64,000 nucleotides of DNA, from contig NZ_CP130701.1 of the NCBI RefSeq assembly GCF_030553075.1, forward strand, positions 1,798,001-1,862,000, written 5' to 3'. This DNA is from Halomonas sp. I5-271120 (GTDB taxonomy: Bacteria > Pseudomonadota > Gammaproteobacteria > Pseudomonadales > Halomonadaceae). Positions 872 to 58,445 of this stretch are shown here, in pieces. The notes below the pieces were generated by a model. The model had not been told where the DNA came from. It was given only the letters and a program-made list of their open reading frames with translations, and did no database searches. Within the stretch, counting starts at the first letter, position 1. Each line of letters begins with the position of its first letter. The translations under genes and the position numbers were made by a program.

Positions 872-1468
872 TTAAGCCATGCCTTGGAAATTCGGCAATG
901 AAGCCACTCTGGCAAGCCACGCTTGCACCGAGGGATAGGCTTCCAGATCGAAGCCGCCTTCGTGGGCTACATGCGTGTAGGCATATAGCGAAATATCTGC
1001 AGTGGTGAAGTGCTCCCCCGCTATAAAGGGCGTTTTCCTAAGCTGCTGCTCCATCACTTGCAGCGCCTTGTGCCCGCCAGCTTGCTTTGACTCATACTCC
1101 CCTTTCTTGTCGTCAGGCAGGCCTAGGTATTTATTGATAAAGCGCGCCACGGCAATAAATGGCTCATGGCTGTATTGTTCAAAAAATTGCCATTGCAGCA
1201 CCTGAGCTTGTGCCCAGCGTTCGTCTGGGTAGAGGGCCGACCCACTGGCTAAATAGTTGATAATGGCGTTTGACTCAGCAAGGGTTTTTCCCTGATCCAG
1301 CTCAAGCAAGGGAATTTTGCCATTGGGGTTCCTTGCCAAGAACTCATCATTCTTCGTTTCGTCAGCCAGGATATCGACATCGATCCACTCGTGGTCAATG
1401 TTCAGAAAACTACAAACGAGCTGCACCTTGTAGCAGTTACCTGATTGTCTATCCCCGTAAATTTTCAC
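872..1468 (-). CDS. Glutathione S-transferase family protein
   Basis: A 198-residue cytosolic GST-fold protein. The N-terminal thioredoxin-like half carries NPNGKIPLLEL (cis-proline loop) and LAESNAIINYLA (glutathione-contacting Glu-Ser). The C-terminal all-helical half has TTADISLYAY, the conserved N-capping region. The start is GTG at 1468, preceded by AAAGGAGGG. It probably conjugates or transfers glutathione to small electrophiles; the exact substrate is unknown. It lies upstream of the SDR gene on the same strand, possibly cotranscribed. Confidence 0.8.
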   Translation of the reverse strand: MKIYGDRQSGNCYKVQLVCSFLNIDHEWIDVDILADETKNDEFLARNPNGKIPLLELDQGKTLAESNAIINYLASGSALYPDERWAQAQVLQWQFFEQYSHEPFIAVARFINKYLGLPDDKKGEYESKQAGGHKALQVMEQQLRKTPFIAGEHFTTADISLYAYTHVAHEGGFDLEAYPSVQAWLARVASLPNFQGMA

Positions 1469-1692
1469 GCACCCTCCTTTAGCAGGTAACAGGTATTAGG
1501 CTGCGAGCTCGTTTACTGACCTGAACACGCTCGAGCGTTCAATGAGGATACTGGCGAATTCCCACAGGCAGCACAACCTTGCCGGCTGCTGCCTGACGAG
1601 GAAGTGGTGTGTGTGGAATGAGGAATGAGCGACAGGAGCAGAAAGGTGGCCCGGGCATTGAAGCCCGGGCAGGTGCCTAAGGGCGGTTTGCC
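1469..1692. other. Intergenic gap between GST gene and ALDH operon end
   Basis: This gap holds no convincing gene. Its 3' part contains the hairpin listed at 1649-1670, and the remainder holds the region upstream of the GST gene. Confidence 0.5.
1649..1670 (-). terminator. Putative terminator hairpin after the ten-gene operon
   Basis: Two copies of the self-complementary octamer GCCCGGGC are separated by six bases, about 22 nt past the aldehyde dehydrogenase stop. On the minus strand it is followed by CACCTTTC rather than a clean U-run, so it may be a weak or processed 3' end. Confidence 0.4.
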
Positions 1693-3135
1693 TCAGGCGG
1701 GGCGGGTGACGTAGCGGGTCTCAAGGTAGGCATCGAGGCCTGCAAGGCCGAGCTCGCGACCGATGCCGCTTCTCTTCATGCCGCCCCAACCGAGCCCTGG
1801 TGGCGCCACTTGGCAGCTATTGCACCAGACGTTGCCGGCGGTGAGTCGGCTCGCCAGGACCTCGGCCCGCGCGGCATCGCCTGCGACCACGGTGGCGGCC
1901 AGGCCGAAATCGCTGTCGTTGGCGAGCGCCACCGCTTCGTCGTCGTCCTTTACGGCTCGCGCGCACAGCACCGGGCCGAAGATCTCTTCACGCCACAGGC
2001 GGCTTGTCGCGGGTACATCACGGAACACGCGGGGGGCGACGAAGTAGCCTTGGGCGGGCAGGGCTATCGCATCCGCCGTGGTGGCAACCAGTCCTTCTTC
2101 TTCTGCCATCGCCAGGTAGGCATTCACCCGGTCACGCTGGGCGGCGTTGACCAGCGGACTGAGCGTGGTGGTCGCAAGCTGGGGGTCGCCGGCACTTAGC
2201 TCGACGATGGCGGCGTTCAAGCGCTCAAAGAGCGCCTCGGCGATGCTTTGGTGCACCAGCAGTCGCGAGGTGGCCGAGCACATCTGGCCGGCGTTGTAGC
2301 AGAACCCGGCCAGCACCAGCTCACAGGCCAAGTCGAGGTCGGCGTCTTCGGTGACCACAATCGGCGACTTGCCACCAAGCTCCAGCGACACGTTGCGGGT
2401 GCCCCGGGCGGCGGCGGCCATCACCGCTTCGCCGACGGCATTGCTGCCGGTGAAGGACAGCTTGTCGACGCCCGGGTGGCCGGTAAGCGGCGCGCCTACG
2501 TTTTTGCCATCGCCGTGCACCAGGTTGAAGACCCCGGCCGGCAGGCCAATCGCCACGGCGATCTCGGCCAATGCCTGTTCCGGCAGCGGCGTCACTTCAG
2601 AGGGTTTGAAGACCACCGTGCAGCCGGCAGCCAGCGCTGGGGCGAGTTTCCAGGCGCTGCTGACCAGCGGAAAGTTCCAGGGTGTGATCAGCCCGGCCAC
2701 GCCGGCCGGGTCCTGATAGCGGCGTGAGATCAGCCCCGGCTCGCCGGTGTCCACCGCTTCGCCCTGGCGAGCCTCCAGGCGGCGGGCCTCGCCGGCGTAA
2801 TAGCGATAGCAGGCGATGGCATCGCTGAGGTCCTGTTCGGCTTCGGCGCGGGGCTTGCCGTTGTTGCGGCTGGAGAGTGTCTCGAGTCCCTCGCGGCGGG
2901 CCTCGAGCGCGTCGGCCAGGGCGTCCAGGTAGTCGCCGCGCGCCTTGCCGCCAATCGCCCGCCACTCAGGTAGGGCGCGACGGGCGGCGCTCACCGCGGT
3001 GTCCACGTCCTCCGCCGAGCCTTCCGTGACCTCGGCGATGACGGTCTCGCGGTAAGGGTCGGTGACTGGCAGGCGGCGATCCCCGCGACTCGCGACCCAG
3101 CTGTTGTCAATGAAATGGTGCATCAGTTCTTGCAT
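1693..3135 (-). CDS. Aldehyde dehydrogenase, betaine/amino-aldehyde type
   Basis: A 480-residue NAD(P)-dependent aldehyde dehydrogenase. The catalytic residues fall at Glu252 (SLELGGKSP) and Cys286 (NAGQMCSATS), the same numbering as in Pseudomonas betaine aldehyde dehydrogenase. TPWNFP near residue 151 supplies the oxyanion Asn. The start at 3135 overlaps the end of the upstream permease gene by 13 bp. The reading frame stays open much further upstream, but that part is antisense-frame noise inside the permease gene. As last gene of the operon it would oxidise the aldehyde made by the AruI-like decarboxylase, for example 4-guanidinobutyraldehyde or another cationic omega-aldehyde. The family call is firm; the substrate is inferred from context. 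Confidence 0.85.
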   Translation of the reverse strand: MQELMHHFIDNSWVASRGDRRLPVTDPYRETVIAEVTEGSAEDVDTAVSAARRALPEWRAIGGKARGDYLDALADALEARREGLETLSSRNNGKPRAEAEQDLSDAIACYRYYAGEARRLEARQGEAVDTGEPGLISRRYQDPAGVAGLITPWNFPLVSSAWKLAPALAAGCTVVFKPSEVTPLPEQALAEIAVAIGLPAGVFNLVHGDGKNVGAPLTGHPGVDKLSFTGSNAVGEAVMAAAARGTRNVSLELGGKSPIVVTEDADLDLACELVLAGFCYNAGQMCSATSRLLVHQSIAEALFERLNAAIVELSAGDPQLATTTLSPLVNAAQRDRVNAYLAMAEEEGLVATTADAIALPAQGYFVAPRVFRDVPATSRLWREEIFGPVLCARAVKDDDEAVALANDSDFGLAATVVAGDAARAEVLASRLTAGNVWCNSCQVAPPGLGWGGMKRSGIGRELGLAGLDAYLETRYVTRPA

Positions 3136-3875
3136 GGGCTGCGCTCCTTGCCGCGAAGGGGCAGCCAGCGGTGGCGCGTCGGCTGCATGCCGGGGAAGTA
3201 GTGCTCCACTTGGCGCAGCACTATGGTCAGCACCATGGTCATCGCCAGATAGATGCCGGCGATCAGCATCAGCGGCTCGTAGACCAGGAAGGTCTCGTCG
3301 CGAATGATGTTGGCGGCCTGCAGCAGGTCCATCAGCGCGATGGTCGAGACCAGCGGCACGGATTTCAGCAGCAGGATCATCTCGCCGGTCAGCGTCGGCA
3401 GGCATAGCTGAATGGCGCGGGGCAGCCACAGCCGGAAGAAGACCTGGAAAGGCGACATGCCAAAGGCTCGGCCGGCCTCCCGTTCGCCGGGCGGCACGCT
3501 GAGTAGGGCTCCGCGCAGCACTTCGCCGGAGTAGGCGCCAACGCTCAGAATGAAGGTCAGGGCGCCGTAGAAGAAGGGGTCGCGCAGGATCGGCCAGATG
3601 AGGCTGTCCTGCACTCCGGGGATGCCTTCCAGCAGGCGGCCGACGCCGTAGTAGAAGAAGAACAGCTGCACCAGCAGCGGCGTGCCGCGCATCACGGTGG
3701 TAAAGCCATGAGCGAACCAGGCCAGCGGACGAGGGCCCTTGAGGCGTGCCATGGCGACGGCCACGGCCAGAATCAGGCCGCCTACCGCGGAGACGGCGAC
3801 CAGCCACAGGGTGTTGACGAAGCCTTCGAGCAGATATTCCTGATAGAAGGGATCGGCGAGCCAGGAAAAGTCCAT
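3123..3875 (-). CDS. Polar amino-acid ABC transporter permease (HisM/GlnP type)
   Basis: A 250-residue inner-membrane permease with several hydrophobic helices. It carries the EAA-loop region GEREAGRAFGMSPFQVFFRLWLP, typical of amino-acid importers. I took MDFSWLADPF at 3875 as start: GAGGAGG precedes it, and it sits one base from the stop of the neighbouring permease. It pairs with that permease to form the channel of the importer encoded between 3123 and 6312, fed by the binding protein at 4675-5442. Confidence 0.9.
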   Translation of the reverse strand: MDFSWLADPFYQEYLLEGFVNTLWLVAVSAVGGLILAVAVAMARLKGPRPLAWFAHGFTTVMRGTPLLVQLFFFYYGVGRLLEGIPGVQDSLIWPILRDPFFYGALTFILSVGAYSGEVLRGALLSVPPGEREAGRAFGMSPFQVFFRLWLPRAIQLCLPTLTGEMILLLKSVPLVSTIALMDLLQAANIIRDETFLVYEPLMLIAGIYLAMTMVLTIVLRQVEHYFPGMQPTRHRWLPLRGKERSPCKN

Positions 3876-3876
3876 G

Positions 3877-4590
3877 TCAGGCCTCCTCGGGTGCGGGCTG
3901 GCCACGGCGCACGTAGCGCTCCAGGCGCGCGAAGAGCGCGGTGGAGGTCAGGGTCATCAGCAGGTAGATGACGCCGGCGGCGGCGTAGAACAGGAAGTGG
4001 GCCCGGGTACTGGCGGCGGCCTGCTGAATGGTGAAGAACAGCTCGCTGAAACCGATGACGCTGATCAGGGCGGTGTCCTTGATCAGGATTAGCCACAGAT
4101 TGGACATGCCGGGCAGGGCGTTGGGCAGCATGGCGGGAATCACGATGCGGTGAAAACGCGCCCAGGTGGAGAAGCCGAAGGCGTCGGCCGCCTCTAGCTG
4201 GCCCTTGGGAATGGCCAGGATGGCGCCGCGCAGTACCTCGGTCATGTAGGCGCCCTGGACGAAGGCCAGCACTCCAACGGCGGTAACGAAGCCATTGATG
4301 GCGATCTGGCCAGGCAGCCCCATGGCGTGGATCAGCGCGGTGAGCGCCTGAGAGCCTGCGTAGTAGAGCAGGATGATCAGCAGCAGTTCGGGGACGGCGC
4401 GAACCGCCGTCGAGTAGGCGGTGGCCAGGCCGCGCAGCGGGGCCCAGGGGCTTAAGCGCGCGCTGGCGCCGATCAGGCCCAGCACCAGGCCGATGGCATA
4501 GGCCAGTACGGCGATCTCAAGGGTCGTCAGGGCACCCTGGAGAATGGGGCCGGCCCAGTCGAGCAACCCCTCTTGGGAAACCGTGTTCAT
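3877..4590 (-). CDS. Polar amino-acid ABC transporter permease (HisQ type)
   Basis: A 237-residue permease of the HisQ/HisM family. It has an N-terminal hydrophobic segment (TTLEIAVLAYAIGLVLGLIG) and the EAA-loop sequence GQLEAADAFGFSTWARFHRI. The chosen start MNTVSQEGLL at 4590 has AAGGACG upstream. It is the first of two permeases, and 84 bp with a strong hairpin separate it from the binding-protein gene. It probably forms a heterodimer with the following permease and imports a cationic or polar amino acid. Confidence 0.9.
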   Translation of the reverse strand: MNTVSQEGLLDWAGPILQGALTTLEIAVLAYAIGLVLGLIGASARLSPWAPLRGLATAYSTAVRAVPELLLIILLYYAGSQALTALIHAMGLPGQIAINGFVTAVGVLAFVQGAYMTEVLRGAILAIPKGQLEAADAFGFSTWARFHRIVIPAMLPNALPGMSNLWLILIKDTALISVIGFSELFFTIQQAAASTRAHFLFYAAAGVIYLLMTLTSTALFARLERYVRRGQPAPEEA

Positions 4591-4623
4591 GGTGTGTCGC
4601 GTCCTTGATAAGACAGGGCGAGG

Positions 4624-4651
4624 CCGGCAGGCGGCAATGGCCACCTGCCGG
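4624..4651 (-). promoter_or_regulatory. Stem-loop between binding-protein and permease genes
   Basis: CCGGCAGG at 4624-4631 pairs with CCTGCCGG at 4644-4651. An inner GGC/GCC pair closes a four-base loop. There is no U-run, so it is more likely an mRNA-stabilising or attenuating hairpin than a full terminator. Such elements commonly raise binding-protein expression above that of the permeases. Confidence 0.5.
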
Positions 4652-4674
4652 GCGAACGTCGTCGAGGACCGGGA

Positions 4675-5442
4675 TCAGGTGCAGATGTCGGTGCCGAAGT
4701 ATTCCTCGGACAGGGTGCTGCAGGTGCCGTCGTCACGGACCTGGGTGATGGCTGCATCAATCTTCGTCTTCAGGGCGTCGTCGCCCTTGCGGATGCCGAT
4801 GCCCACGCCTTCGCCGTAGGCCTCGTGGCGCGGGGCGGTGGCCTTGATCTCGTAGCCGTCGGCTTCGTCGCGCTCCAGGAACTCGGTCATGGCGATCTTG
4901 TCGGCCAGGATCACGTCCAAGCGGCCGGCCAGTAGATCACGATTGACCTGTTCGGCCTGATCGTAGAGGCGGATGTCGCCGACGTTGTCGCGCAGGGCGC
5001 GACGGGCATAGGTGGCGTTGGTGGTGGCGGACTGCACGCCAAGCACCAGGCCGTCCAGGCCTTGCGGAACCTCGAGGGCGAGATCGTCGGCGGCCACGAA
5101 GGCGCCCGGCGTGAAGTAATAGGGCTGGCTGAAGTCGATGACCCGTTGGCGTGCCTTGGTGATCGACATCGAGTTCATGATCATGTCGATGCGGCCGGAT
5201 TTCAGCGACGGGATGATGCCGCTCCAGCCGGTGGGGGTGATCTCGCATGCCTCGTCCATGGCCTCGCAGATGGCCATACCCAGCTCAACCTCGAAGCCGG
5301 TCCATTCGCCTGAGGCTGAGGTATAGGTGAAGGGCGGGTAGGGCTCGGCAGAAATGCCGATCTTCAGCGGCTCGGCGGCCTGGGCCGTCATACTCAGGCC
5401 GAGCGTCAGGGCGGCGGCGGTTATCATCAGGGTGCGTTTCAT
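4675..5442 (-). CDS. Periplasmic amino-acid binding protein (HisJ/LAO-like)
   Basis: A 255-residue solute-binding protein with signal peptide MKRTLMITAAALTLGLSMTAQA. It shows the SBP_bac_3 pattern: YPPFTYTSASGEWTGFEVEL at the N-lobe, then DMIMNSMSITKARQR and IDFSQPYYFTPG. These are hallmarks of the lysine/arginine/ornithine/histidine-binding group, so a cationic amino acid or amino-acid-like ligand is likely. AAGGAGA precedes the ATG at 5442. It is the receptor for the importer in this operon. Binding specificity cannot be fixed from sequence reading alone. Confidence 0.9.
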   Translation of the reverse strand: MKRTLMITAAALTLGLSMTAQAAEPLKIGISAEPYPPFTYTSASGEWTGFEVELGMAICEAMDEACEITPTGWSGIIPSLKSGRIDMIMNSMSITKARQRVIDFSQPYYFTPGAFVAADDLALEVPQGLDGLVLGVQSATTNATYARRALRDNVGDIRLYDQAEQVNRDLLAGRLDVILADKIAMTEFLERDEADGYEIKATAPRHEAYGEGVGIGIRKGDDALKTKIDAAITQVRDDGTCSTLSEEYFGTDICT

Positions 5443-5508
5443 TGTGGTCTCCTTGGCTTTTTAAAGCTCTTGTGGGTCTTGCATCAGGGGGGTGTGACAT
5501 CGGCGCTG

Positions 5509-6312
5509 CTAGCAAACGGTCGGTGCCACGAAGTGACGACAGCGCTCGTGATCGCTGTCCTCGAAGACATCGCTCGGGGTGCCGGCGACGCCGACGACAC
5601 CGCGATCGAGAAATACCACCTGGTCGGATACATCTCGGGCGAAGGCCATCTCATGGGTCACCAGCACCATGGTGCGTCCTTCGTCGGCCAGGCCGCGGAT
5701 GACGCTGAGTACCTCGCTGACCCGCTCCGGGTCCAGCGCCGACGTCGGCTCATCGAACAACAGCAGCCGCGGTTCCATGGCCAGCGCGCGGGCGATCGCT
5801 ACCCGCTGCTGCTGGCCGCCGGAAAGATAGGCCGGATAGCTGTCGCGTTTGTCGGCCATGCCGACCCGCTCCAGGTAGTGTTCGGCGAGGGCATTGGCGC
5901 GACGCCGTGACAGGCCCTTGACCCGCATCGGGGCCTCGGTGACGTTGCCAAGCACCGTGAAATGGGGCCAGAGGTTGAACTGCTGGAAGACCATGCTGAC
6001 CTTGGCGCGCAGCCGCTGCAGTTGGCGCCTGTCGAGGCCGACGACGTCGCCCTTGGGGTTGCGGTCGAAGCGAATGGCTTCATCGGCAATCGCCAGTTCG
6101 CCGAGGTTGGGGCGCTCCAGCAGGTTGAGACAGCGCAGCAGGGTGCTCTTGCCCGATCCGCTGGCGCCGATGATGGAGGTGACGCTGCCCTCGGGGACCT
6201 CGAGGGAGACGTCGCGCAGCACCTCGAGGTCGCCGTAGCGCTTGACGAGGTGGCGGGCCTCTACCGCTAGCGTGCTAGAGGCCGACGGAGTGACGTGTAG
6301 CGATGATGTCAT
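5509..6312 (-). CDS. Amino-acid ABC transporter ATPase (HisP/GlnQ type)
   Basis: The energising subunit of the polar amino-acid importer. It shows Walker A GASGSGKS, signature LSGGQQQR, Walker B LLLFDEPTSALD and an H-loop VTHE. I prefer the ATG at 6312 (267 residues), 7 nt after the transaminase stop. An alternative ATG at 6348 would overlap that gene and add a non-conserved leader. It sits in the middle of the operon between the transaminase and the binding protein. Confidence 0.9.
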   Translation of the reverse strand: MTSSLHVTPSASSTLAVEARHLVKRYGDLEVLRDVSLEVPEGSVTSIIGASGSGKSTLLRCLNLLERPNLGELAIADEAIRFDRNPKGDVVGLDRRQLQRLRAKVSMVFQQFNLWPHFTVLGNVTEAPMRVKGLSRRRANALAEHYLERVGMADKRDSYPAYLSGGQQQRVAIARALAMEPRLLLFDEPTSALDPERVSEVLSVIRGLADEGRTMVLVTHEMAFARDVSDQVVFLDRGVVGVAGTPSDVFEDSDHERCRHFVAPTVC

Positions 6313-6319
6313 AGGCGAT

Positions 6320-7528
6320 TCACTCTGCAGTGGAAAGAGCAGCGGCATCTTCCCGCGCCGCTTCGGCGCAGCGCGCCAGACGCTGGCTGGCCGTGCGCAG
6401 ACGGTCTTCGTCGACGGTCAGGCTCAGGCGCACGAAGCCGGCAGCGGAGGGGCCGAAGGCCTCCCCCGACAGCACCGACACGCCCTCGTCGTCGAGCAGG
6501 CGGTCGGCGAAGGCCTGGGAAGAAAGCCCGGTAGCGCGCACGTCGATCATCAGGAACATGCCCGCCGCCGGGGTGATGACGTCGATGGCCGAGCAGTTGG
6601 CGAGTGCGGCGCATACGGCGTCGCGACGCGCCCGGTAGGTCTCGCGCATCAGCTCGCGCTCGGGAAGATCCTGACTGAGGGCATCGCGAGCGGCGTCCTG
6701 GATGAACTCCGGGCAGCCATAGAGCATGCAAAGTGCCAGGTTGGCCATATGGTCGATCAGCTTCTGCGGGCCGAGCACCCAGCCCAGCCGCCAGCCGGTC
6801 ATGGCATGGGACTTGGAGAGGCTGTCGATGACCACGGTGCGGTCGGCCATGACGGGCAGGCTCGCGGCGCAGATGTGTTCGCCCTCGAAGACCAGCTCGG
6901 CGTAGACCTCATCGGAGATCAGCCATAGATCATGGCGATGGCACAGCGCGGCAATGGCGGCCCAGGATTTGGCGTCGATCAGCTGGCCGGTGGGGTTATG
7001 GGGGCTGTTGAGCATGATCGCCCGGGTGCGCGGGGTGATCGCGGCCTCGATGTCGGCGACATCCAGGCGGAAGTCGTCGTCGCCGCGCAGCGGAATGTGC
7101 ACCATGCGGGCGCCGGTGGAGCGCAGCACGGCTTCATAGGTGACGTAGCTCGGCTCGGGGACGATCACCTCGTCGTCGGGGTCGAGCAGGCACTGGGCGG
7201 TGGCATAGAGGCCGCACTGGGCACCCGCCATGACGATCAGCTGATCCGGTGTGGCATTGACGCCGTGGGCGCGATACCGCGCGGCGATGGCCTCGCGCAG
7301 GCCCTGCTTGCCCTGAACGTCGGGATAATGCGTGGCGCCGCCGCGCAGGCTCGCCACTGCACTCTCGACGATCGGTGCCGGGGTCGCGAAGTCCGGGTCG
7401 CCCACCGAGAGCACCGTGATGTCCTCGCCGGCGGCCTTGCGCGCCAGCGCCCGGTTGTGGATATCCCAGGCGGCGGCGCCTTCGCCGGCAATACGCTCGG
7501 TCAGGCGGGAGAATCGCATCGCCGTCAT
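6320..7528 (-). CDS. aruH: AruH-like arginine:pyruvate transaminase
   Basis: A 402-residue fold-type I PLP aminotransferase. It resembles Pseudomonas AruH along its whole length: RIAGEGAAAWDIH at the N-terminus, LSVGDPDFATPAPIV, MLNSPHNPTGQ, the PLP-lysine region DSLSKSHAMTGWRLGWV and FGPSAAGFVRLSL. AruH transfers the alpha-amino group of arginine to pyruvate, giving 2-ketoarginine. GGAGG lies 7 nt before the ATG at 7528, which overlaps the previous stop as ATGA. It shares the operon with an AruI-like decarboxylase and an aldehyde dehydrogenase, the next two steps of the arginine transaminase pathway. A related cationic amino acid cannot be excluded as the true substrate. Confidence 0.8.
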   Translation of the reverse strand: MTAMRFSRLTERIAGEGAAAWDIHNRALARKAAGEDITVLSVGDPDFATPAPIVESAVASLRGGATHYPDVQGKQGLREAIAARYRAHGVNATPDQLIVMAGAQCGLYATAQCLLDPDDEVIVPEPSYVTYEAVLRSTGARMVHIPLRGDDDFRLDVADIEAAITPRTRAIMLNSPHNPTGQLIDAKSWAAIAALCHRHDLWLISDEVYAELVFEGEHICAASLPVMADRTVVIDSLSKSHAMTGWRLGWVLGPQKLIDHMANLALCMLYGCPEFIQDAARDALSQDLPERELMRETYRARRDAVCAALANCSAIDVITPAAGMFLMIDVRATGLSSQAFADRLLDDEGVSVLSGEAFGPSAAGFVRLSLTVDEDRLRTASQRLARCAEAAREDAAALSTAE

Positions 7529-8469
7529 AGGCTGGCCTCCACCGCCGTCAGGGCGTCGTTGCCGTCACGGGTCTCGACGCCCTCGAGGAAGGCGGCCACG
7601 CGCTCGGGGTGGTCGGCCAGCCAGTCATGGGCCACGACGTCGAGGTCGCGTTCCTGAAGGCTGTAGGCGCTGATGAACTCGCTCTGCTCATCGGCCGAGA
7701 ACACGAACTGATCGAGTAGCTGGGTGAGGTTCGGGTTGGCCTCGGCGTAGGCCTTGGAAACGATGGTCTTGACGTCGCTGCGGCCGTTGTCGGGGCCGAA
7801 GACGCCTTGCGGATCGTCGAGGATGCGGGTGTCGTATTCCGGCACCATCCAGTGCGGCGTCCAGCCGTAATACAGTACCCACTTCTGCTCTGCCACGGCG
7901 GATTTGACCATGGACAGCATGCCCGGCGTCGAGGAGGCCGCGATATCCCAGTCGCCAAGACCGTAGGTATTGGCGCTGATGGCGCCGTCGAGCATGTCGG
8001 TGACCGTGGAGCCACTCTCGATGCTGAAAATGCGGCTGTCGAAGCGCTCTGCCACGTCAGGGTCGGCCAGCTGCTCGGCACTGGTGATGCCGGCCTCATA
8101 CACGTAGCCCGGTACGGCGAAGCCCATGCGGGCGCCGTTGACGTTGTTGCCAAGATCGAGGATGGCGCCAGCCTGCATGGCGGCGTCGTAGCTCTCCTGC
8201 TGCGCGGGCAGCCAGCCGGCCAGGAAAGCATCGCTGTCGCCGGTTTGCAGGGTGTTGTAGCCCACCGTCGAGCTGAGTTCCTGGATCTCGATGGTATAGC
8301 CCAGCGGCTTGATGAGCTGCGAGAAAATCTCACTCTTGACGGTCACGCCCGGCCAGGGCGGTACCACCAGGCTGAGGGTGTCGTCCCGGTCGGTGTTGGT
8401 GTCGGCGAGGGCGGGGCCGGCCAGGGCCAGGCTCGCGAGCAGGGTCAGGGTGCTGCGTGACGACTTCAT
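7525..8469 (-). CDS. OpuAC-type quaternary-amine binding protein
   Basis: A 314-residue periplasmic binding protein of the glycine betaine/carnitine/choline class. MKSSRSTLTLLASLALAGPALA is the signal peptide, then VVPPWPGVTVKSEI and WLPAQQESYD, with aromatic-rich WTPHWMVPEYD later. Trp/Tyr residues of this kind usually cage trimethylammonium groups. AAGGAG stands 10 nt before the ATG at 8469. No matching permease or ATPase is in the operon, so it may deliver ligand to a transporter encoded elsewhere. It is a paralogue of the orphan protein at 41067-42014. Its presence suggests the operon handles a quaternary amine, not only arginine. Confidence 0.85.
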   Translation of the reverse strand: MKSSRSTLTLLASLALAGPALADTNTDRDDTLSLVVPPWPGVTVKSEIFSQLIKPLGYTIEIQELSSTVGYNTLQTGDSDAFLAGWLPAQQESYDAAMQAGAILDLGNNVNGARMGFAVPGYVYEAGITSAEQLADPDVAERFDSRIFSIESGSTVTDMLDGAISANTYGLGDWDIAASSTPGMLSMVKSAVAEQKWVLYYGWTPHWMVPEYDTRILDDPQGVFGPDNGRSDVKTIVSKAYAEANPNLTQLLDQFVFSADEQSEFISAYSLQERDLDVVAHDWLADHPERVAAFLEGVETRDGNDALTAVEASL

Positions 8470-8539
8470 GCGTAGACGTCTCCTTATCGTTGTTGTGAGC
8501 CGGCAATGCCGGCCCATGGCGGTTCGAGGCCCCGGGGCG

Positions 8540-10162
8540 TTAGAGCGACGCGGCCCAGGCGGCGGCATCGACCTCAATGATCAGCGGGCTTGCGGCGTCG
8601 TCGAGCCGGCCCAGGGCGTCGTGCAGGCTCGCCGGGTCGGTCACGCTGAGGTAGCGGCAGGCATAGGCCTCGGCCAGGGCACGGAAGTCTGGCGCGGCCA
8701 GGTCCACGCCCAGGTGCGGGATGTCGCTTAGCGACATGTAGCGGCGAATCTCGTCATAGCCGTCGTTGTTCCAGATCACCACGGCGACCGGCCGGCCAAG
8801 GTCGCGGGCGGTGCCGAGCTCGCCGAGCACGAACTGCAGGCCGCCATCGCCGACCAGGGCGACCACCGGCAGGTCGGGCCGTGCCGTGGCGGCGCCAAGG
8901 GCGGCGGGCAGGCCGTAGCCGAGGGTGCCGAAGCCGGTCGCGGCGTTGAACCAGCGACGCGGGGCCGGCATCGAGGCCAAGAAGTTGCCGGCATAGACCG
9001 GGCCCGTGGAATCGCCGACCACGATGGCGTCGGGCAGCGCTGCGCGCAGGGTGGCGTAGAGCGGCACATAGGGCGCGAGCTCCTGGTCGTCGGCGAGGGC
9101 CAGCGCGCCGCGCACCTCGGCGGCCCGGTCGGCACCAGTGCTGGCAGAAGCATGCTGCACAGAGGCATCGGCCGGCTGCTGACTCAACTGACTGAAAAGT
9201 CCGCGCATGGCCTGGCCGGCCTCGGCGAGCATGGCCAGGTCCGCCGCCTGGTTGCGGCCCAACTGCTGAGGGTCGATATCGACCCGGATCAGGCGGCCAT
9301 CGAGCCGGAAACCGCCGTCGAATACCAGGTCGTAGTCGGTCTCGCCGATCTCGGTGCCCAGCGCCAGCACCACGTCGGCCTCGGCGGCCAGCCGCCGAGC
9401 GGCAGGCAGGCTCATGGTGGCGCCCAGATCCAGCGGGTGATCCTGACCCAATACGCCCTTGGCGTTGATGGTGGTGAAGGCCGGGGCATCGAGGCGTTCG
9501 ACCAGTGCCTGAGCCGCCTCGGGAGCGGCGACGGTGCCGCCGCCGAGCAGCACCAGCGGGCGTTCGGCGTTGGCGAGCCAGTCGGCGGCCAGCGCCAGGG
9601 CCTCCGGCGCCGGGGCCGGCGGAAAGACGTGCGCCGGTGAGGGCGAGCCCTCAGGCATCGGTGTTGCCATCACATCGAGCGGGATCTCGATATGCACCGG
9701 GCCCGGGCGGGCGCTCGCGAACACCGCGAAGGCGCGAGCCAGCACTTCTGGCAGTGCCGTCGGCTCATGCAGGGTGTGGCTGAACACGCTGACGCCAGAC
9801 AGCGTCTCGCCCTGATGGGGCATCTCGTGAAGCCGCCCCTGGCCGCGGCCCAGGCTGGCGCGTTGGTTGACGCTCGAGATGACGAGCATCGGCACCGAGT
9901 CGGCCAGCGCCTGGCCCATGGCGGTGGCGATGTTGGTCATGCCGGGCCCGCTGATGATGAAGCAGGCCGCCGGCTTGCCGCTGGCGCGGGCGTAGCCGTC
10001 GGCCATGAAACCGGCGCCCTGTTCATGGCGTGGCGTGATGTGGGCAAGCCCGCTGGTGCCCAGGGCGCGATACAGTTCGATGGTATGCACGCCGGGGATG
10101 CCGAAGGCAGTGTCGACGCCGTAGGCCTCGAGCAGGGCGACGAGTTGCTGGGCACAGGTCAT
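8540..10162 (-). CDS. aruI: AruI-like ThDP-dependent 2-oxoacid decarboxylase
   Basis: A 540-residue thiamine-diphosphate enzyme of the acetolactate-synthase superfamily. The N-terminal PYR domain has FGIPGVHTIEL and the catalytic-Glu region RHEQGAGFMADGYARASG. The C-terminal PP domain has the cofactor/Mg motif VGDGGLQFVLGELG ending in NNDGYDEIRRYM. It is closest to 2-ketoarginine decarboxylase AruI, which turns 5-guanidino-2-oxopentanoate into 4-guanidinobutyraldehyde. It overlaps the preceding HD-domain gene by ATGA, so translation is coupled. Pairing with the AruH-like gene supports the assignment, while the flanking Tmp-like genes leave the substrate open. Confidence 0.75.
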   Translation of the reverse strand: MTCAQQLVALLEAYGVDTAFGIPGVHTIELYRALGTSGLAHITPRHEQGAGFMADGYARASGKPAACFIISGPGMTNIATAMGQALADSVPMLVISSVNQRASLGRGQGRLHEMPHQGETLSGVSVFSHTLHEPTALPEVLARAFAVFASARPGPVHIEIPLDVMATPMPEGSPSPAHVFPPAPAPEALALAADWLANAERPLVLLGGGTVAAPEAAQALVERLDAPAFTTINAKGVLGQDHPLDLGATMSLPAARRLAAEADVVLALGTEIGETDYDLVFDGGFRLDGRLIRVDIDPQQLGRNQAADLAMLAEAGQAMRGLFSQLSQQPADASVQHASASTGADRAAEVRGALALADDQELAPYVPLYATLRAALPDAIVVGDSTGPVYAGNFLASMPAPRRWFNAATGFGTLGYGLPAALGAATARPDLPVVALVGDGGLQFVLGELGTARDLGRPVAVVIWNNDGYDEIRRYMSLSDIPHLGVDLAAPDFRALAEAYACRYLSVTDPASLHDALGRLDDAASPLIIEVDAAAWAASL

Positions 10163-10746
10163 GGCGCTGTCGCCTCCTCGCGGATCGCCGGCAGGCCGCC
10201 GAACGGGTCTCGGTTCAGCACGCGCTCGACCATCGGCACGAAGTGGTCAAGCGGCAGGGTGTCGTAGTCGGGGTCGAAGCTGGCCTGATCCCAGTCGTCG
10301 CAGAAGCGCACCGTGCGCGCATAGGCGGGATGGTCCGCAAACTGCTCGCGTGCGTGGCGATCCAGGCCGAAGAAGTGGCGGTAGTGATAACCCTGAAAGA
10401 GCTCGTGGTGGCGAATCATCCAGGTGTTCAACGGGTCGATGAACGGCTCGAGAATCCCGGCCGCGATCTCGGCATGGTTGGCCGGCGACAGGTCGTCGCC
10501 GATGTCATGCAGCAGGGCGCAGACCACCATTTCCTCGTCGGCACCGTCGCGCAGTGCTCGAGTGGCGGTCTGCAGGCTGTGTTCAAAGCGATCCACCGGA
10601 TAGCCGTGAGTGTCGCCTACCAGGCGGTGAAGGTGCTCGAGCACCCGCCGCGGGGCGTCGGCCACGTAGTCGCGAAAGCGATCATCGATCAGCGCCCACT
10701 CGTCGCGGCGGGCTTCACCGAAATGCCGGAAGCTGGCCTTTATCAT
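10159..10746 (-). CDS. tmpB: TmpB-like HD-domain diiron oxygenase
   Basis: A 195-residue HD-domain protein with the ligand pattern of mixed-valence diiron oxygenases (PhnZ, TmpB, MIOX). The ligands are FEHSLQTA, LLHDIGDDL, SPANHAEIA, IRHHELFQGYHY and a late Asp in FCDDWD. TmpB cleaves the C-P bond of 1-hydroxy-2-(trimethylammonio)ethylphosphonate to glycine betaine and phosphate. Length and motifs fit that small family, not the regulatory HD phosphohydrolases. It overlaps the 2-oxoglutarate oxygenase gene upstream and the decarboxylase gene downstream by ATGA. A 2-oxoglutarate oxygenase next to an HD oxygenase is the known layout of oxidative phosphonate cleavage. The exact substrate is an inference. 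Confidence 0.7.
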   Translation of the reverse strand: MIKASFRHFGEARRDEWALIDDRFRDYVADAPRRVLEHLHRLVGDTHGYPVDRFEHSLQTATRALRDGADEEMVVCALLHDIGDDLSPANHAEIAAGILEPFIDPLNTWMIRHHELFQGYHYRHFFGLDRHAREQFADHPAYARTVRFCDDWDQASFDPDYDTLPLDHFVPMVERVLNRDPFGGLPAIREEATAP

Positions 10747-11894
10747 GCGGCCTCCTCGGCGCTGGCCAGCTGCTGGCGCAGCACCAGACGGCGGCTGGCG
10801 GTGCTGTCGCGATCCACGTAGCCCTGGCGCAGGTGGCGCACGCCGCCGGCCAGCTCGAAGGCGCGACGACCGTGCAGCAGGCGGTAGTTGTCCATGATCA
10901 GCATCTGGCCCGGATCGAGCTTGAGGTTCAGGGTCAGCTCGTCGGAGGTGATCAGCTGGTAGAAGGCCTGACGGGCGGCGTAGTAGCGCGCCAGTTCCTC
11001 GGCGGGCAGTGCCTCGACGCGCTCGGTACGATTGCTGTAGCGCACGCGGAAAATGCGCCCCTGGCTGTCGAGTTCGATCAGCGGTCCCTCGCTCTCAAGC
11101 CAGGTGGTCGCGTCGCGGTAGCGGAAGCCCGGCGAAACCCGGGTCAGGCAGTCGAAGGCCGCCGGGTCGCGCTCACGAAGCAGCTGGGCCGCCCGGTAGC
11201 CGTCGGCCAGGGTGCTGTCGCCGCCGTCGGCGGCATTGGTCAGGCAGTGCAGCCAGATATAGCCGGGAATCGGATCGCGATAGGGGTTGTCGGTATGCGG
11301 TTCCAGGCCGCGCTGGGTCATGGTCAGGTCATAGGCATTGGCCACCGATTTGACGTCGGCAATGCCGCCCCAGTTGGTGCGGCGCAGCGGCCCGACACGC
11401 TCCATCAGCGCCTGCATGCCATCCTCTTCGGTGGGCACACCGGAGACCACGACGAAGCCGTTGCGATGCAGCCCCTCGAGCATCTCGAGCAGGGCGGCAT
11501 CGTCGTCGATGGCGGCGGCGAAGTCAGCATGGTGCGGCTTGGCCCGTTGCGCGTCCCACAGCAGGCGTCCCGGGGCGACGAGGTCATCGGCGCTGGCGCG
11601 GTCACTGCCTTGGCGACTGTCACCGAGCAGCGCGTCCAGCGGGAAGTGAACGTGGTGACCATCGCTGAAGCACAGGGCCAGGGCATCGTCGACCAGCTCA
11701 GCGCGCTCCAGGGCCAGGTCGAGCGGCAGCTCGGCGGCCTCGATCAGCCGCTGGCCGGTGAGAGGGTCCAGCGTCTCGGCATCGGGCGCCCGTTCTCGCA
11801 GCCATAGGGCCGCGAATTCGCGGGGCTGTGCGTCGATGTCGAGGAGCAGGCGCTGTCCGTCGGCGGACAGCGTTGCCTTGGCGCTTGTGGTCAT
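10743..11894 (-). CDS. tmpA: TmpA-like Fe(II)/2-oxoglutarate oxygenase
   Basis: A 383-residue TauD/BBOX-superfamily oxygenase. The iron ligands are in LEPHTDNPYRDP (HxD) and, distally, DNYRLLHGRRAF. The N-terminal BBOX-type domain reads ALWLRERAPDAETLDP and lacks the Cys cluster that binds zinc in animal gamma-butyrobetaine hydroxylase. TmpA hydroxylates 2-(trimethylammonio)ethylphosphonate at C1 and was long misannotated as butyrobetaine hydroxylase. The translationally coupled HD partner favours that role over carnitine synthesis. It is the first gene of the operon, reading away from the divergent regulator at 12098. Confidence 0.7.
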   Translation of the reverse strand: MTTSAKATLSADGQRLLLDIDAQPREFAALWLRERAPDAETLDPLTGQRLIEAAELPLDLALERAELVDDALALCFSDGHHVHFPLDALLGDSRQGSDRASADDLVAPGRLLWDAQRAKPHHADFAAAIDDDAALLEMLEGLHRNGFVVVSGVPTEEDGMQALMERVGPLRRTNWGGIADVKSVANAYDLTMTQRGLEPHTDNPYRDPIPGYIWLHCLTNAADGGDSTLADGYRAAQLLRERDPAAFDCLTRVSPGFRYRDATTWLESEGPLIELDSQGRIFRVRYSNRTERVEALPAEELARYYAARQAFYQLITSDELTLNLKLDPGQMLIMDNYRLLHGRRAFELAGGVRHLRQGYVDRDSTASRRLVLRQQLASAEEAA

Positions 11895-12097
11895 GGCGAT
11901 GAATCTCCGGGTAATGCTGAGAGCCTGTTCCTGAGGCTCCTGGGGCGATGTGCTGTACAGGTGTGCTGTGGCAGATGCGCTGAGGCGTCATTAGCTCCGT
12001 GGCCAGCGGCACCGATGACGCGACTCGCTTTACCCTAGCGGCAGACCGGCCATAGAATTGAACTAAATTAGCCATAAGGTTGATATTTTTGGTCAAT
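11895..12097. promoter_or_regulatory. Divergent promoter region of tmp-aru operon and AraC regulator
   Basis: A 203-bp gap between divergent starts. Its AT-rich end holds two GCCATA elements (12049-12054 and 12071-12076) 22 bp apart on the same face of the helix. It also holds TTGA and TCAA arms around 12080-12096 next to the regulator start. These could be AraC-family half-sites; this is a pattern judgement only. Confidence 0.35.
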
Positions 12098-13102
12098 ATG
12101 AATGACTACTCAGAGGCTTGGCCGTATCCGCGTCCGGATTCGCCGCCGCTGCTCTCGCCCGAGCAGGCCGAGCAAACCCTGGACGTCTGGCTGGTCCCCA
12201 AGTTCTCGATGTTGACGCTGTTCTGCATGCTGGAGCCGCTGCGCGTCGCCAACCGTTTTGGTCGAGATCTCTTTGCCTGGCGACTGCGCTCGATGGATGG
12301 CCAAGGCGTGGTGGCGAGCAACGGCGTCTGCATCGAGGTAAACGGCGATCTGGCCTCGGTGCCTGACGATGCCCACCTGATGGTGGTGTCGTCCTACGAG
12401 GCAGAGGCGGTGGTCACGGCCCGGGAGCGAGCCGTGTTGCGCCGCTTGGCGGCCCATGGTGGGTGGTTGGGCGGCTTGGATACCGCGCCCTTCATCCTGG
12501 CGCGGGCGGGGGTGCTGGAGGGCTGCCGGGTGGCGCTGCACTGGGAAAGCGTGCCGGCCTTTCGCCGCGAGTTTCCGCAGCTACGTGTCAGCCGTGAGCG
12601 TTTCGAAGCCGATGCCACGCGACAGACGGGGGCCGGGGGCACTGCCGGCATCGATATGATGCTGGACCGTATCGCTCGCGATTATGGCCCGGCGCTAGCC
12701 GACGCCGTGGGGCGCCAGCTGGTGCACCATCGCCATGAGGCGTCGTCCGACGATGAGCAGCAGGTGCGCTATGCGGGGCTGCCGCGCAGTGTGGTCAAGA
12801 GCCTGGCGGTGATGGAGGCCAACTTGGCCCAGGCGCTGCCGATTCCGGAGATCTGCCGGATGGTGGGGCAGTCGCAGCGCCAGCTTGCGCGGCTGTTCCT
12901 GGCGCACTTTGGTGAGACGCCCAAGCAGTGCTATCTGGGCATGCGTCTGGACCGGGCGCAGCGTCTGCTCGCCGGCAGCCATTGCCGGGTCACCGAAGCG
13001 GCAATGGCCACTGGCTTCCAGCAGCTGACGCATTTTTCCCGCGCCTATCGCGCCCGTTTCAGCGAGACGCCCAGCCAGACCGCCGCCCGGGGACCGGGCT
13101 AA
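12098..13102 (+). CDS. GlxA/GbdR-like AraC-family regulator
   Basis: A 334-residue transcription regulator. An N-terminal DJ-1/PfpI-like (GATase-1) domain (LVPKFSMLTLFCMLEPLRVANR, then LGGLDTAPFILARAG) is followed by a C-terminal AraC helix-turn-helix pair (ICRMVGQSQRQLARLFLAHFG and AAMATGFQQLTHFSRAYRARF). This architecture is shared by GbdR, CdhR and ArgR-type AraC regulators of glycine betaine, carnitine and arginine catabolism. ATG at 12098 is taken as start. It is divergent from the tmpA-like gene and is the obvious candidate activator of that ten-gene operon. Its effector is unknown. Confidence 0.85.
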   Translation: MNDYSEAWPYPRPDSPPLLSPEQAEQTLDVWLVPKFSMLTLFCMLEPLRVANRFGRDLFAWRLRSMDGQGVVASNGVCIEVNGDLASVPDDAHLMVVSSYEAEAVVTARERAVLRRLAAHGGWLGGLDTAPFILARAGVLEGCRVALHWESVPAFRREFPQLRVSRERFEADATRQTGAGGTAGIDMMLDRIARDYGPALADAVGRQLVHHRHEASSDDEQQVRYAGLPRSVVKSLAVMEANLAQALPIPEICRMVGQSQRQLARLFLAHFGETPKQCYLGMRLDRAQRLLAGSHCRVTEAAMATGFQQLTHFSRAYRARFSETPSQTAARGPG

Positions 13103-13170
13103 GCCTCCTCAGCCCTGTGCCAGCCTCTTTCGCCAGGACGTTTGTCTCAGGGCTCTTCTTTCCGGACGTA

Positions 13171-14403
13171 TCAGGCTTCTGCCGTCAGGCGGCGCCGCCG
13201 TTGGGCGCGCTGCACCATGCGGTAGCGCGAGCGGATCTCGTCGCGCTCCATGTAGCAGCCCTGCAGCCAGCGATGGCCGCTTTGGCCTTCGAAGGCATCC
13301 CGGGCGTGGAGCAGCCGGCGGTTGTCGAAAATCACCAGGTCGCCGGGCCGGTAAGTGAAGCGGATAGCGAAGGCCGGGTCGCGCAACAGCCGCTGGAGCG
13401 TCATCAGCGCCTCATAGGCGGGCTCGATGTCTTCGAAGGCAGCATCCAGTGGGCCACGCAGGAAGTCGGCGATGCGCACCTCGAGCAGCTCACCCCGGGC
13501 GTCGAGGCGGATCATCGGTTCGTGCCAGACGTAGTCGGTGGTCTTGGCGGTGTTGGCGTAGCGCCAGCGCACGCGGGTCAGCGTCGCCCAGGCCTGCGGG
13601 TAGTGGTCGCGCAGCGCCTCGGCGATGGCGAAGCCGTCGAGCATCACGGCCTGGCCGCCCTCCACGCTGTTCTCCAGGCAGTGCAGCATCTGCAGGCCCG
13701 GGTGGTACTCGCGGGTTGGCAGGTCGACGTGGGGCGGCAGGGCGATGGAAGTGTAGGCGTTGGAGTCCGGGTCTGGCTTGGCCTTGACGTCGAACAGCGC
13801 GCCGAAGTTGGTGGGGCGCATCGGGCCGATGCGCCCGGCAATGGCGGAAAGCGAGCCAGGCTCGGTGGGCAGGTTGCGCAACCGCACCAGCCCCTTGCCG
13901 AGCACGCTTTCGAGTGCCGGGGCGAGCATCGCCTCTTCCGCTTCGCTGTCCGGTGCGGTCTCGAGCAGGCCTGATGCGTCGAGGGTATCGGGCCCGCCGT
14001 CCGGGCCACCCAGCCAGGTCGTGACCGGCACCAGCGGCGCTTCCGGGTCGGCGGCCTTGTCATGCTGCTGGTCATAGTCGTTGGCGCGCAGCCAGCCCGG
14101 GTGGAAGCGCAGTCGACGGTCCTCCGGGGTGAAATCCACGCACAGGGCGCCGGCGGCATCGATCTCGGCGCCGGCGATTTCCGGCCAGGCGGGCAGGCTG
14201 GAAAGATCCAGGATGCGCTCGCGGGTCGCCGGGTTGATGGTGGTGTCGTCGGCGGCGTTCTCGCGCAGCCAGATGCTGTGGTAGCGGCTAACGCGGCCGT
14301 CCTTCCAGTGCACGGTCAAAAGGCGCGGCGAGAAGGACACGGCGTCGAGGGCAACATCGATGGGCCAGGCGTCGTAATCGGGGGTGATCGGCAGGTCGGT
14401 CAT
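13171..14403 (-). CDS. Gamma-butyrobetaine hydroxylase-like 2-oxoglutarate oxygenase
   Basis: A 410-residue BBOX-family oxygenase. The iron-binding HxD lies in LPPHVDLPTREYHPG, followed by LQMLHCLENSVEGGQ and the distal His in DNRRLLHARDAFEG. An N-terminal DUF971-like domain (WLRENAADDTTINP) is present but has no zinc-binding cysteines. The animal enzyme converts gamma-butyrobetaine to L-carnitine; here that would feed the adjacent cdh genes. AGGAGG precedes ATG 14403. It lies just downstream of the second AraC-type regulator on the same strand. It is a paralogue of the TmpA-like protein, but its HxD surroundings are closer to BBOX. Confidence 0.75.
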   Translation of the reverse strand: MTDLPITPDYDAWPIDVALDAVSFSPRLLTVHWKDGRVSRYHSIWLRENAADDTTINPATRERILDLSSLPAWPEIAGAEIDAAGALCVDFTPEDRRLRFHPGWLRANDYDQQHDKAADPEAPLVPVTTWLGGPDGGPDTLDASGLLETAPDSEAEEAMLAPALESVLGKGLVRLRNLPTEPGSLSAIAGRIGPMRPTNFGALFDVKAKPDPDSNAYTSIALPPHVDLPTREYHPGLQMLHCLENSVEGGQAVMLDGFAIAEALRDHYPQAWATLTRVRWRYANTAKTTDYVWHEPMIRLDARGELLEVRIADFLRGPLDAAFEDIEPAYEALMTLQRLLRDPAFAIRFTYRPGDLVIFDNRRLLHARDAFEGQSGHRWLQGCYMERDEIRSRYRMVQRAQRRRRLTAEA

Positions 14404-14482
14404 GAGACCTCCTCGGCAATGAGTGACGTTGCGTCAGCATGCCAAGACGGGCGGCAAAGAGAGCGTCTGGATTCGACGCCGA

Positions 14483-15547: not shown

Positions 15548-15719
15548 CGTCGCAAGAGAGGCGTCGACGAGTGTAGCGCCCAGTCAATCCGTTGCAACAC
15601 GGCAAGTGAGGAAGAGCCTCCGCGAAGACGGCGGCCAGGACAGGCCACACATTCGAGCCAAACAGGCAGGCCGGCGACGCAGGCGTCGCCGACCCGTATG
15701 GCGCCGGATGCCGGTGGCG

Positions 15720-16178
15720 TCAGCGCTTGCCCGACGGCAGGCCGATGCTGCGGCCGGCGAGTTCCGGCCAGGTGTCGGCCTGGGGCAGGGTGTCGATGGC
15801 CGCGTCCACGGCGCCGGGAAAGGGCGCGGGACGATCATTGACCGAGTCGATACCCATCAGCATCTGCTCGCTCGAGGCCAGCAGGTTGCCTGCCGTGTCC
15901 TGCATCGTGAACAGGACGTGCAGGCGCTTGGCATCGCGCTCGAGCAGCGTCACGTCGATGCACAGCGCCTGGTGCTCGTGAGCGGCGCGGCGATAGCAAA
16001 GATGCGTCTCGAGGGTATAGATGGTGTAGCCATGCCGCTGGCGGCCCTCTGCATCCAGGCCGATGCGCTCCATCAGCGCCTCGACGCCCAGCGAGAAGGC
16101 CCGCGCGTACTCGGCGTCATTCATGTGGCCGTTGTAGTCGACCCACTCCGGGAGCACCTGTGTGTCGAGCAGTGCCAT
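15720..16178 (-). CDS. cdhB: Betainyl-CoA thioesterase (hotdog fold)
   Basis: A 152-residue 4HBT-type thioesterase with the hotdog signature WVDYNGHMNDAEYARAF near the N-terminus. In carnitine degradation CdhB hydrolyses betainyl-CoA to glycine betaine and CoA. The start at 16178 shares one base with the stop of the dehydrogenase gene, so the two are translationally coupled. The order cdhC-cdhA-cdhB matches the Pseudomonas carnitine operon. The family call is clear and the substrate follows from context. Confidence 0.85.
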   Translation of the reverse strand: MALLDTQVLPEWVDYNGHMNDAEYARAFSLGVEALMERIGLDAEGRQRHGYTIYTLETHLCYRRAAHEHQALCIDVTLLERDAKRLHVLFTMQDTAGNLLASSEQMLMGIDSVNDRPAPFPGAVDAAIDTLPQADTWPELAGRSIGLPSGKR

Positions 16179-38622: not shown

Positions 38623-38666
38623 GCCCTAAAAAAGATAAAAAACGATACAAGTAGAGGAGAGCCATC

Positions 38667-40250: not shown

Positions 40251-40336
40251 GCCAGCCTGCGCATTACACGGGGGTGGAAGTTGTCCCGGGCCGCCCCCAT
40301 ACCCTAATCAACTGCAATGACCAGAAGGGAGATCCC

Positions 40337-40975: not shown

Positions 40976-41066
40976 CGACCAACGCTAGATAGGAGTAGCG
41001 TTGCGCCGAACCCATTCATGGCATGATCTGCCAAGGATTCATCCCTTGAACAATCCCTACCGTCCC

Positions 41067-55017: not shown

Positions 55018-55042
55018 TGTAGAGCAACGCAAAGGGAGCTTT

Positions 55043-57393: not shown

Positions 57394-57407
57394 CAAGGAG
57401 CTTCATC

Positions 57408-58442: not shown

Positions 58443-58445
58443 GCC

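Follow-up and report, generated by a model that had tools for sequence, protein, structure and literature searches.

The arginine transaminase pathway runs through AruH, AruI, an aldehyde dehydrogenase and a guanidinobutyrase. The TmpA/TmpB pathway leads from trimethylammonioethylphosphonate to glycine betaine. In eukaryotic carnitine synthesis, trimethyllysine dioxygenase, an aldolase, ALDH9A1 and BBOX convert trimethyllysine (TML) by way of gamma-butyrobetaine into carnitine (as outlined in PMC6487263), and gut bacteria convert TML to delta-valerobetaine (DVB), a conversion reported in PMC8976029. Carnitine itself is taken to glycine betaine by the caiX-cdhCAB operon of P. aeruginosa, with its divergent cdhR (PMC5806209). 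Here we describe a ten-gene operon, conserved in halophilic bacteria, that has enzyme classes in common with these systems. It occupies positions 1693-11894 (minus strand) of a 64,000-nucleotide stretch of Halomonas sp. I5-271120 DNA (contig NZ_CP130701.1, positions 1,798,001 to 1,862,000; hereafter the window), within a genome of 4.04 Mb. On balance, we lean towards the view that the operon and the neighbouring block of carnitine-type genes form one catabolic route, from TML through carnitine to glycine betaine. We infer every substrate and reaction of this route from the genes and their order, conservation and co-occurrence, and from the clades, fold and metal ligands of the proteins.

In the direction of transcription, the operon encodes a TmpA-like oxygenase, an HD-domain protein, a thiamine diphosphate (ThDP)-dependent enzyme, an OpuAC-type receptor, an aminotransferase, an ABC importer ATPase, an SBP_bac_3 receptor, two permeases and an aldehyde dehydrogenase. 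Neighbouring genes share 4 nt at three junctions: TmpA/HD, HD/ThDP and, if the aminotransferase starts at 7528, receptor/aminotransferase. The initial annotation had listed the same ten genes, among them AruH-like and AruI-like enzymes, an aldehyde dehydrogenase, a cationic amino-acid importer and a quaternary-amine receptor, and we recovered every one of them in place; it ended at 11894, however, so that the carnitine-type genes at 12098-18072 went unreported. A scan of positions 1400-12400 for promoters and terminators gave one promoter-like site and two sites resembling terminators, no excess over shuffled sequences.

Uptake of N6,N6,N6-trimethyllysine would fall to the polar amino-acid ABC importer. 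Its ATPase (5509-6312) and its HisQ-like (3877-4590) and HisM-like (3123-3875) permeases were recognised from translation and position, and its SBP_bac_3 receptor (4675-5442; PF00497) is of the lysine/arginine/ornithine type (217 bits on TIGR01096, below the cut-off of 256). The class I/II pyridoxal phosphate-dependent aminotransferase (6320-7528; PF00155, 239 bits), which reaches no NCBIfam cut-off among its best 25 matches listed, is the proposed TML transaminase and would yield 6-(trimethylammonio)-2-oxohexanoate. From this the AruI-related ThDP-dependent 2-oxoacid decarboxylase (8540-10162) may form 5-trimethylammoniopentanal, and the aldehyde dehydrogenase (1693-3135; PF00171, 512 bits) is proposed to oxidise the aldehyde to DVB; its top NCBIfam models are betaine-aldehyde and aminobutyraldehyde dehydrogenase, both under their cut-offs. 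The OpuAC-type (choline/betaine) periplasmic receptor (7525-8469; PF04069, 188.7 bits; TIGR03414, 229 bits, below the cut-off of 379) could also aid the import of DVB. TmpA-I, the Fe/2-oxoglutarate (Fe/2OG) oxygenase of the TmpA/BBOX family encoded at 10743-11894, would then hydroxylate DVB at C2. Its neighbour HD-I (10159-10746; PF01966), an HD-domain diiron-oxygenase-like relative of PhnZ, TmpB and MIOX, is the proposed 2-hydroxyacid oxygenase that would release C1 as CO2 and convert 2-hydroxy-DVB into gamma-butyrobetaine (R-CHOH-COOH + O2 -> R-COOH + CO2 + H2O). Outside the operon, a hydroxylase encoded at 13171-14403 would turn gamma-butyrobetaine into carnitine, and a carnitine dehydrogenase, a BKACE-family enzyme and a thioesterase would carry carnitine on to glycine betaine. 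A bolder claim, which we put forward tentatively and with some doubt, is that this is a bacterial TML-to-carnitine route with no eukaryotic step before gamma-butyrobetaine, in which an HD diiron oxygenase of a new class and its own Fe/2OG hydroxylase would take one carbon off a carboxylic acid and so serve as an alpha-oxidation module.

The proposed start (TML) and intermediate (DVB) are those of the gut-bacterial DavB/DavA system (PMC8976029). Where DavB/DavA employ a lysine 2-monooxygenase and an amidase, however, the present locus has a transaminase, a ThDP decarboxylase, an aldehyde dehydrogenase and enzymes for onward degradation. Likewise, TML, gamma-butyrobetaine and carnitine would be common to this route and eukaryotic carnitine synthesis, but the steps and enzymes between TML and gamma-butyrobetaine differ. 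N-trimethylornithine was considered as the starting amino acid and set aside by reasoning: gamma-butyrobetaine would form from it and leave the oxygenase pair without a function, and the corresponding keto acid falls one carbon short of the analogy with 2-ketoarginine.

The carnitine-type block begins with a divergent GATase1/AraC regulator of the GbdR/CdhR type (12098-13102, plus strand; NF052371 GbdR, 210 bits, cut-off 480). On the minus strand follow the gamma-butyrobetaine-hydroxylase-like Fe/2OG oxygenase (13171-14403), whose type forms a separate clade (100/100), and a second GATase1/AraC regulator of the same type (14483-15547; 285 bits on NF052371, again below 480). Next come, also on the minus strand, a thioesterase-like protein (15720-16178) with a 105-bit match to the C-terminal portion of the carnitine 3-dehydrogenase model NF005716, an L-carnitine dehydrogenase (16178-17149; NF005471, 441 bits, above the cut-off of 414), and a BKACE-family cleavage enzyme (17146-18072), whose top NCBIfam model is 3-keto-5-aminohexanoate cleavage enzyme (261 bits, cut-off 382). 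Together the last three make up a carnitine cassette, for which we require an L-carnitine dehydrogenase that exceeds its cut-off and adjoining BKACE and thioesterase genes; the latter two are here both below their model cut-offs. We take the dehydrogenase, BKACE and thioesterase types to be the counterparts of the cdhCAB enzymes, with CaiX as the receptor. Pseudomonas carnitine catabolism (caiX-cdhCAB, CdhR, GbdR; PMC5806209) has the carnitine dehydrogenase, BKACE-type and thioesterase-like genes and the GATase1-AraC regulators in common with the present block; what is added here is a gamma-butyrobetaine-type hydroxylase, together with the ten-gene operon.

This arrangement recurs in other genomes. 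We surveyed the best 80 of 95 loci from named genomes, 77 of which carry HD-I (66-99% identity), and counted neighbours in these 77 by tblastn within about 10 kb. TmpA adjoins HD-I in 76 of them, and the 77th (L119; L and G mark our loci and genomes) lies at a contig end. The divergent AraC-type regulator is present in 75, the aminotransferase in 69 and the OpuAC receptor in 67; the importer ATPase, its receptor and the first permease are found in 60 each, the second permease in 59 and the ThDP gene in 57. Of the carnitine-type genes, the hydroxylase is present in 54 loci, carnitine dehydrogenase in 34 and BKACE in 31. Wherever the ThDP gene occurs (57/77), it is grouped with the oxygenase genes in the order TmpA-HD-ThDP. 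The operon is also present in Halomonas elongata (L097). The 77 loci span thirteen genera, including Salinicola, Chromohalobacter, Cobetia, Modicisalibacter and Kushneria, and the nearest named match of the window HD protein within the survey is that of Onishia taeanensis (99% identity). Outside the family, the order of cassette, hydroxylase, TmpA, HD, ThDP, aminotransferase and importer is kept in Saccharospirillum impatiens (L116), with no OpuAC receptor and no aldehyde dehydrogenase within the stretch examined. Its ThDP enzyme falls inside the operon ThDP clade, as would be expected if the block had moved together.

Presence across whole genomes gave a similar picture. Among 151 genomes sampled from the family, we scored HD-I at a threshold of at least 296 bits and the window-type hydroxylase at more than 550 bits; HD-I was found in 65, the hydroxylase in 66 and both in 64. 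The hydroxylase is thus present in 64 of 65 genomes with HD-I, compared with 2 of 86 lacking it, and the sole HD-I genome without a hydroxylase (G105) is a 320-contig assembly. Restricting the comparison to the 88 genomes of seven genera that contain both kinds, among genomes with a genus given, we found the hydroxylase in 45/45 HD-I genomes and 2/43 others (genus-stratified p 2e-16). Similarly, all 40 genomes with a ThDP match of at least 68% identity are HD-I genomes. To these we added G117 and G006 as carriers of an operon-type ThDP gene, on account of its adjoining HD gene, since paralogs reach 66% and identity alone does not part the types there. Given the conservation over 77 loci and the genome-level co-occurrence, including the genus-stratified comparison, we set a chance neighbourhood aside; the gene order, for which the initial annotation had suggested a search in other genomes, is indeed conserved. 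Within a single genus, Cobetia, HD-I genomes without (G030, G045, G057, G079) and with (G006, G068; one partial) an operon-type ThDP gene occur side by side, and the front half of the route seems to have been lost or gained within that genus.

The oxygenase pair had been annotated as the known pair for trimethylammonioethylphosphonate. If it were a divergent TmpA/TmpB that converts this compound, or a closely related phosphonate, to glycine betaine, an unrelated amino-acid route would merely occupy the same operon, and the product of the pair would join the same glycine betaine pool. TmpA-I does pass the NCBIfam TmpA cut-off (NF049936, 448.6 against 400 bits), and this is probably why many TmpA-I proteins carry the NCBI name '2-trimethylaminoethylphosphonate dioxygenase', likely a misnaming. 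In a tree, however, the TmpA-I clade (13 rows, 100/100) stands apart from that of true TmpA (17 rows, 100/100), which is made up of the solved enzyme, 13 genes beside true TmpB and three second copies; the nearest neighbour of TmpA-I is a third type, TmpA-II (94/91). In all 13 loci with true TmpB, a TmpA adjoins it that shares 58-65% identity with the Leisingera enzyme of solved structure. One row labelled 'TmpAtrue' (L176) lies outside the true clade, has an HD neighbour below the TmpB cut-off and was not counted; three pairs of rows (L193/L161, L194/L162, L196/L168) are the same genes twice, and the long mis-started L195 was left out. The stretch HTDNPYR[DE]P is common to TmpA-I and the true TmpA rows, a point in favour of the phosphonate explanation, and TmpA-I has WGG[IV]ADV where the latter have YGxxFEV. 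The former stretch may bind the acid group, and the latter replacement may open the amine pocket for a longer chain.

HD-I also diverges from its phosphonate counterpart. On the TmpB model NF049941 it scores 47 bits against a cut-off of 300, and the true TmpB proteins, found in 13/398 genomes of the phylum, score 308-364. The TmpB and PhnZ-like rows listed share a YxGE-like loop and the stretches HVxAKR and LSxxSxxSLxLQGG. According to a review, the glutamate of the YxxE loop comes close enough to the substrate amine for a hydrogen bond in both PhnZ and TmpB (PMC8177086). At this position all 15 HD-I proteins listed have HGYPVDR, and 11 of 13 TmpB have YLGE (the pattern missed the other two). 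RHHELFQGYHYR takes the place of HVxAKR in 6/6 aligned HD-I sequences, and among the aligned rows LSxxSxxSLxLQGG has no HD-I counterpart. Neither member of the pair thus falls within the verified phosphonate group, whether judged by the TmpA tree, the TmpB score or the motifs. The phosphonate explanation would also leave the co-occurrence with the hydroxylase and the carnitine genes without a reason. We therefore set the phosphonate pathway aside as very improbable: next to the TmpA/TmpB pathway, the present locus has a separate TmpA clade, an HD protein without the TmpB/PhnZ substrate motifs, and carnitine-type neighbours.

Further TmpA/HD pairs came to light. The Halomonas sp. I5-271120 genome holds a second copy (L009:2115-6861; genome positions 1777115-1781861), with TmpA 67% and HD 81% identical, whose only neighbours are an OpuAC (betaine-type) receptor, a class II aldolase and a divergent regulator. 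A third, distant type, TmpA-II/HD-II, is found at L041:8606-10347, L059:8541-10281 and L063:9614-11385; L041 and L063 have a LysR-like neighbour, and not far from the pair in L063 lies a Rieske-type protein that, judged by eye from the start of its sequence, resembles glycine betaine monooxygenase. Two Moorena bins (L157, L158) carry an HD relative (51-53%) with one or two adjoining genes of weak TmpA likeness (25%).

What remains common to HD-I and its relatives is the fold and the metal site. HD-I has an HD-oxygenase-like fold with PhnZ and TmpB as the top structural matches, a likeness that would also suit a phosphonate substrate, and six metal-ligand residues, matched to the PhnZ/TmpB ligands by alignment, are invariant in 62 aligned sequences. 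Similarity to MIOX is slight: Foldseek gave an E value of only 0.29, and the Pfam MIOX model does not match the window HD protein. With a cut-off of 25, this model scores HD-II of L041 at 19.2 bits and one relative at 24.7 bits, both weak. In PMC8177086, PhnZ is described as cleaving a C-P bond and MIOX a C-C bond of myo-inositol; compared with these and with PhnY/PhnZ, HD-I is proposed to cleave the C1-C2 bond of a 2-hydroxy acid.

Among HD relatives farther away, 20 loci of 19 more distant genomes share few neighbouring genes other than those of close kin (the HD gene is uncalled in L079). At L077:9629-11100, an HD-family protein overlaps by 4 nt a gene that looks PhyH-like (phytanoyl-CoA hydroxylase type) by eye, possibly an independent pairing of an Fe/2OG and an HD enzyme. 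At L078:7596-12541, an HD-II-like protein without TmpA lies between BKACE-like (52%) and carnitine-dehydrogenase-like (47%) genes, and a GlxA/CdhR-like regulator adjoins. In two more distant proteobacteria (L067:9731-11103, L073:8816-10250) a class II aldolase is found directly beside the HD gene.

As the operon has the enzyme classes of the arginine transaminase pathway, it might instead degrade arginine or another guanidino compound to 4-guanidinobutyrate, with the oxygenase pair acting there or elsewhere. The lysine/arginine/ornithine type of the importer receptor would agree with this, as would the ThDP enzyme, which belongs to the 2-ketoarginine (5-guanidino-2-oxopentanoate) decarboxylase subfamily (NF005712, 763 bits, cut-off 500). 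This model does not separate the enzyme from a paralog in the same genome that scores 764 bits. The paralog (2,016,034-2,017,662; L191) is 63% identical, and its cluster also contains genes for an aldehyde dehydrogenase and for an agmatinase-family ureohydrolase (214 bits on TIGR01230, above the cut-off of 174). In all 14 paralog loci studied (L191 and 13 picked from paralog matches) a ureohydrolase stands beside the ThDP gene, and 12 have an arginine-type aldehyde dehydrogenase of their own; by contrast, a ureohydrolase was found in 0/80 surveyed loci and nowhere in the window. The operon ThDP enzymes, 60-63% identical to the ureohydrolase-linked paralog of their own genome, form their own clade (98/97), and 13 of the 14 ureohydrolase-linked enzymes form an adjacent group (100/99), joined to it by a weaker fork (90/70); the 14th (L219) falls outside, and four rows marked 'other' in this tree are second copies of ureohydrolase-linked rows. 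In place of a ureohydrolase, the operon has a betaine-type receptor, a GbdR/CdhR-type regulator and carnitine genes around it. The separate ureohydrolase-linked AruI-type cluster and the distinct ThDP clade led us to set the arginine pathway aside as improbable.

A change of substrate within this subfamily is easy to imagine, as the structures of 2-oxo-trimethyllysine and 2-ketoarginine have the same distance between cationic centre and carboxylate. A parallel for such a switch between trimethylammonio and guanidino substrates is human ALDH9A1, whose preferred substrate is trimethylaminobutyraldehyde and which has also been assayed on guanidinobutyraldehyde (PMC6487263). Although the evidence does not support the phosphonate label of the initial annotation, its idea of a joint route (transamination, decarboxylation and oxidation, then hydroxylation and oxidative cleavage) fits the carnitine-type neighbours, the co-occurrence in 64/65 genomes and the separate ureohydrolase-linked AruI-type cluster. 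TML, which it had named as one candidate, now appears to be the best candidate substrate, strengthened by the carnitine genes. Its statement that the two pathways share no intermediate is not supported, because DVB could be common to both halves.

Several observations weigh against a single route from TML to glycine betaine. The aldehyde dehydrogenase is present in only 33 of the 77 HD-I loci and, in 4 loci, is nearer to the arginine-type enzyme, and 22 of the 77 carry a class II aldolase that has no role in the proposed scheme. An operon-type ThDP gene is missing from 23/65 HD-I genomes, and in Salinicola 10/11 loci retain the aminotransferase but have no ThDP gene; the operon-type ThDP gene is absent from all 11 Salinicola HD-I genomes sampled. 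The operon-type aminotransferase, in turn, is absent from all 14 arginine-type loci, so that it could serve arginine too, a point that also speaks for the arginine alternative. Two genomes (G124, G126) have the hydroxylase without HD-I, and G126 has the carnitine cassette as well (L197). The hydroxylase at 13171-14403 falls short of the curated BBOX cut-off (TIGR02409, 322 against 415 bits), and a second BBOX-like protein of the same genome (L192:8456-9637) scores slightly higher, at 343 bits; the hydroxylase at 13171-14403 is therefore named from context only. As for the HD enzyme, relatives without TmpA are common: an HD relative occurs in 59/398 genomes of the phylum, and a TmpA-type gene in 1 of the 20 HD-relative loci examined. 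No HD oxygenase acting on 2-hydroxy acids was found in the accessible parts of the literature searched. Lastly, mammalian BBOX hydroxylates DVB at C3, as reported in PMC11773067, which would allow a route without shortening.

A rather unlikely alternative is that the pair acts on an unrelated imported quaternary compound, or hydroxylates DVB elsewhere (for example at C3, as in the 3-hydroxy-DVB formed by mammalian BBOX) with no shortening, and that the genes are a loose betaine-catabolic collection under GbdR/CdhR-like control. The second copy of the pair, accompanied by receptor, aldolase and regulator only, would suit such a collection, as would the 23 HD-I genomes without the ThDP gene. Such a collection is harder to reconcile with the fixed TmpA-HD-ThDP order in every locus that has the ThDP gene, and with the finding that all 40 genomes with the closer ThDP match carry HD-I. 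Moreover, the known HD oxygenases, as described in PMC8177086, cleave the bond beside the hydroxylated carbon, which suits a 2-hydroxy acid. We thus continue to favour, by a modest degree, the route from TML through DVB, gamma-butyrobetaine and carnitine to glycine betaine.

Elsewhere in the window, a further OpuAC-type receptor (41046-42014) lies behind genes that by eye look GMC-oxidoreductase-like (38056-40870). A CRISPR-like array with the 28-nt repeat GTTCGCTGCCGCCCAGGCAGCTCAGAAA occupies 59325-63978, and the six large genes before it (50687-59015) resemble a type I-F cas set in layout and length.

A description of this route was not found among the matches listed in searches of open-access papers. 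According to a 2021 paper, no prokaryote had been observed to synthesise L-carnitine (PMC8085414); if the proposed route is true, it would constitute a bacterial path from TML to carnitine. DVB is known as a gut-bacterial metabolite linked to obesity and cardiac hypertrophy (PMC11773067, PMC8976029), and the route would be a sink for it. The proposed route also suggests that the TmpA name is wrong for many relatives. In the HD diiron oxygenases, the proposed reaction would add the shortening of plain 2-hydroxy acids to the known cleavage of C-P bonds and of inositol, and their wider relatives may then be 2-hydroxyacid oxygenases that work with other partners.

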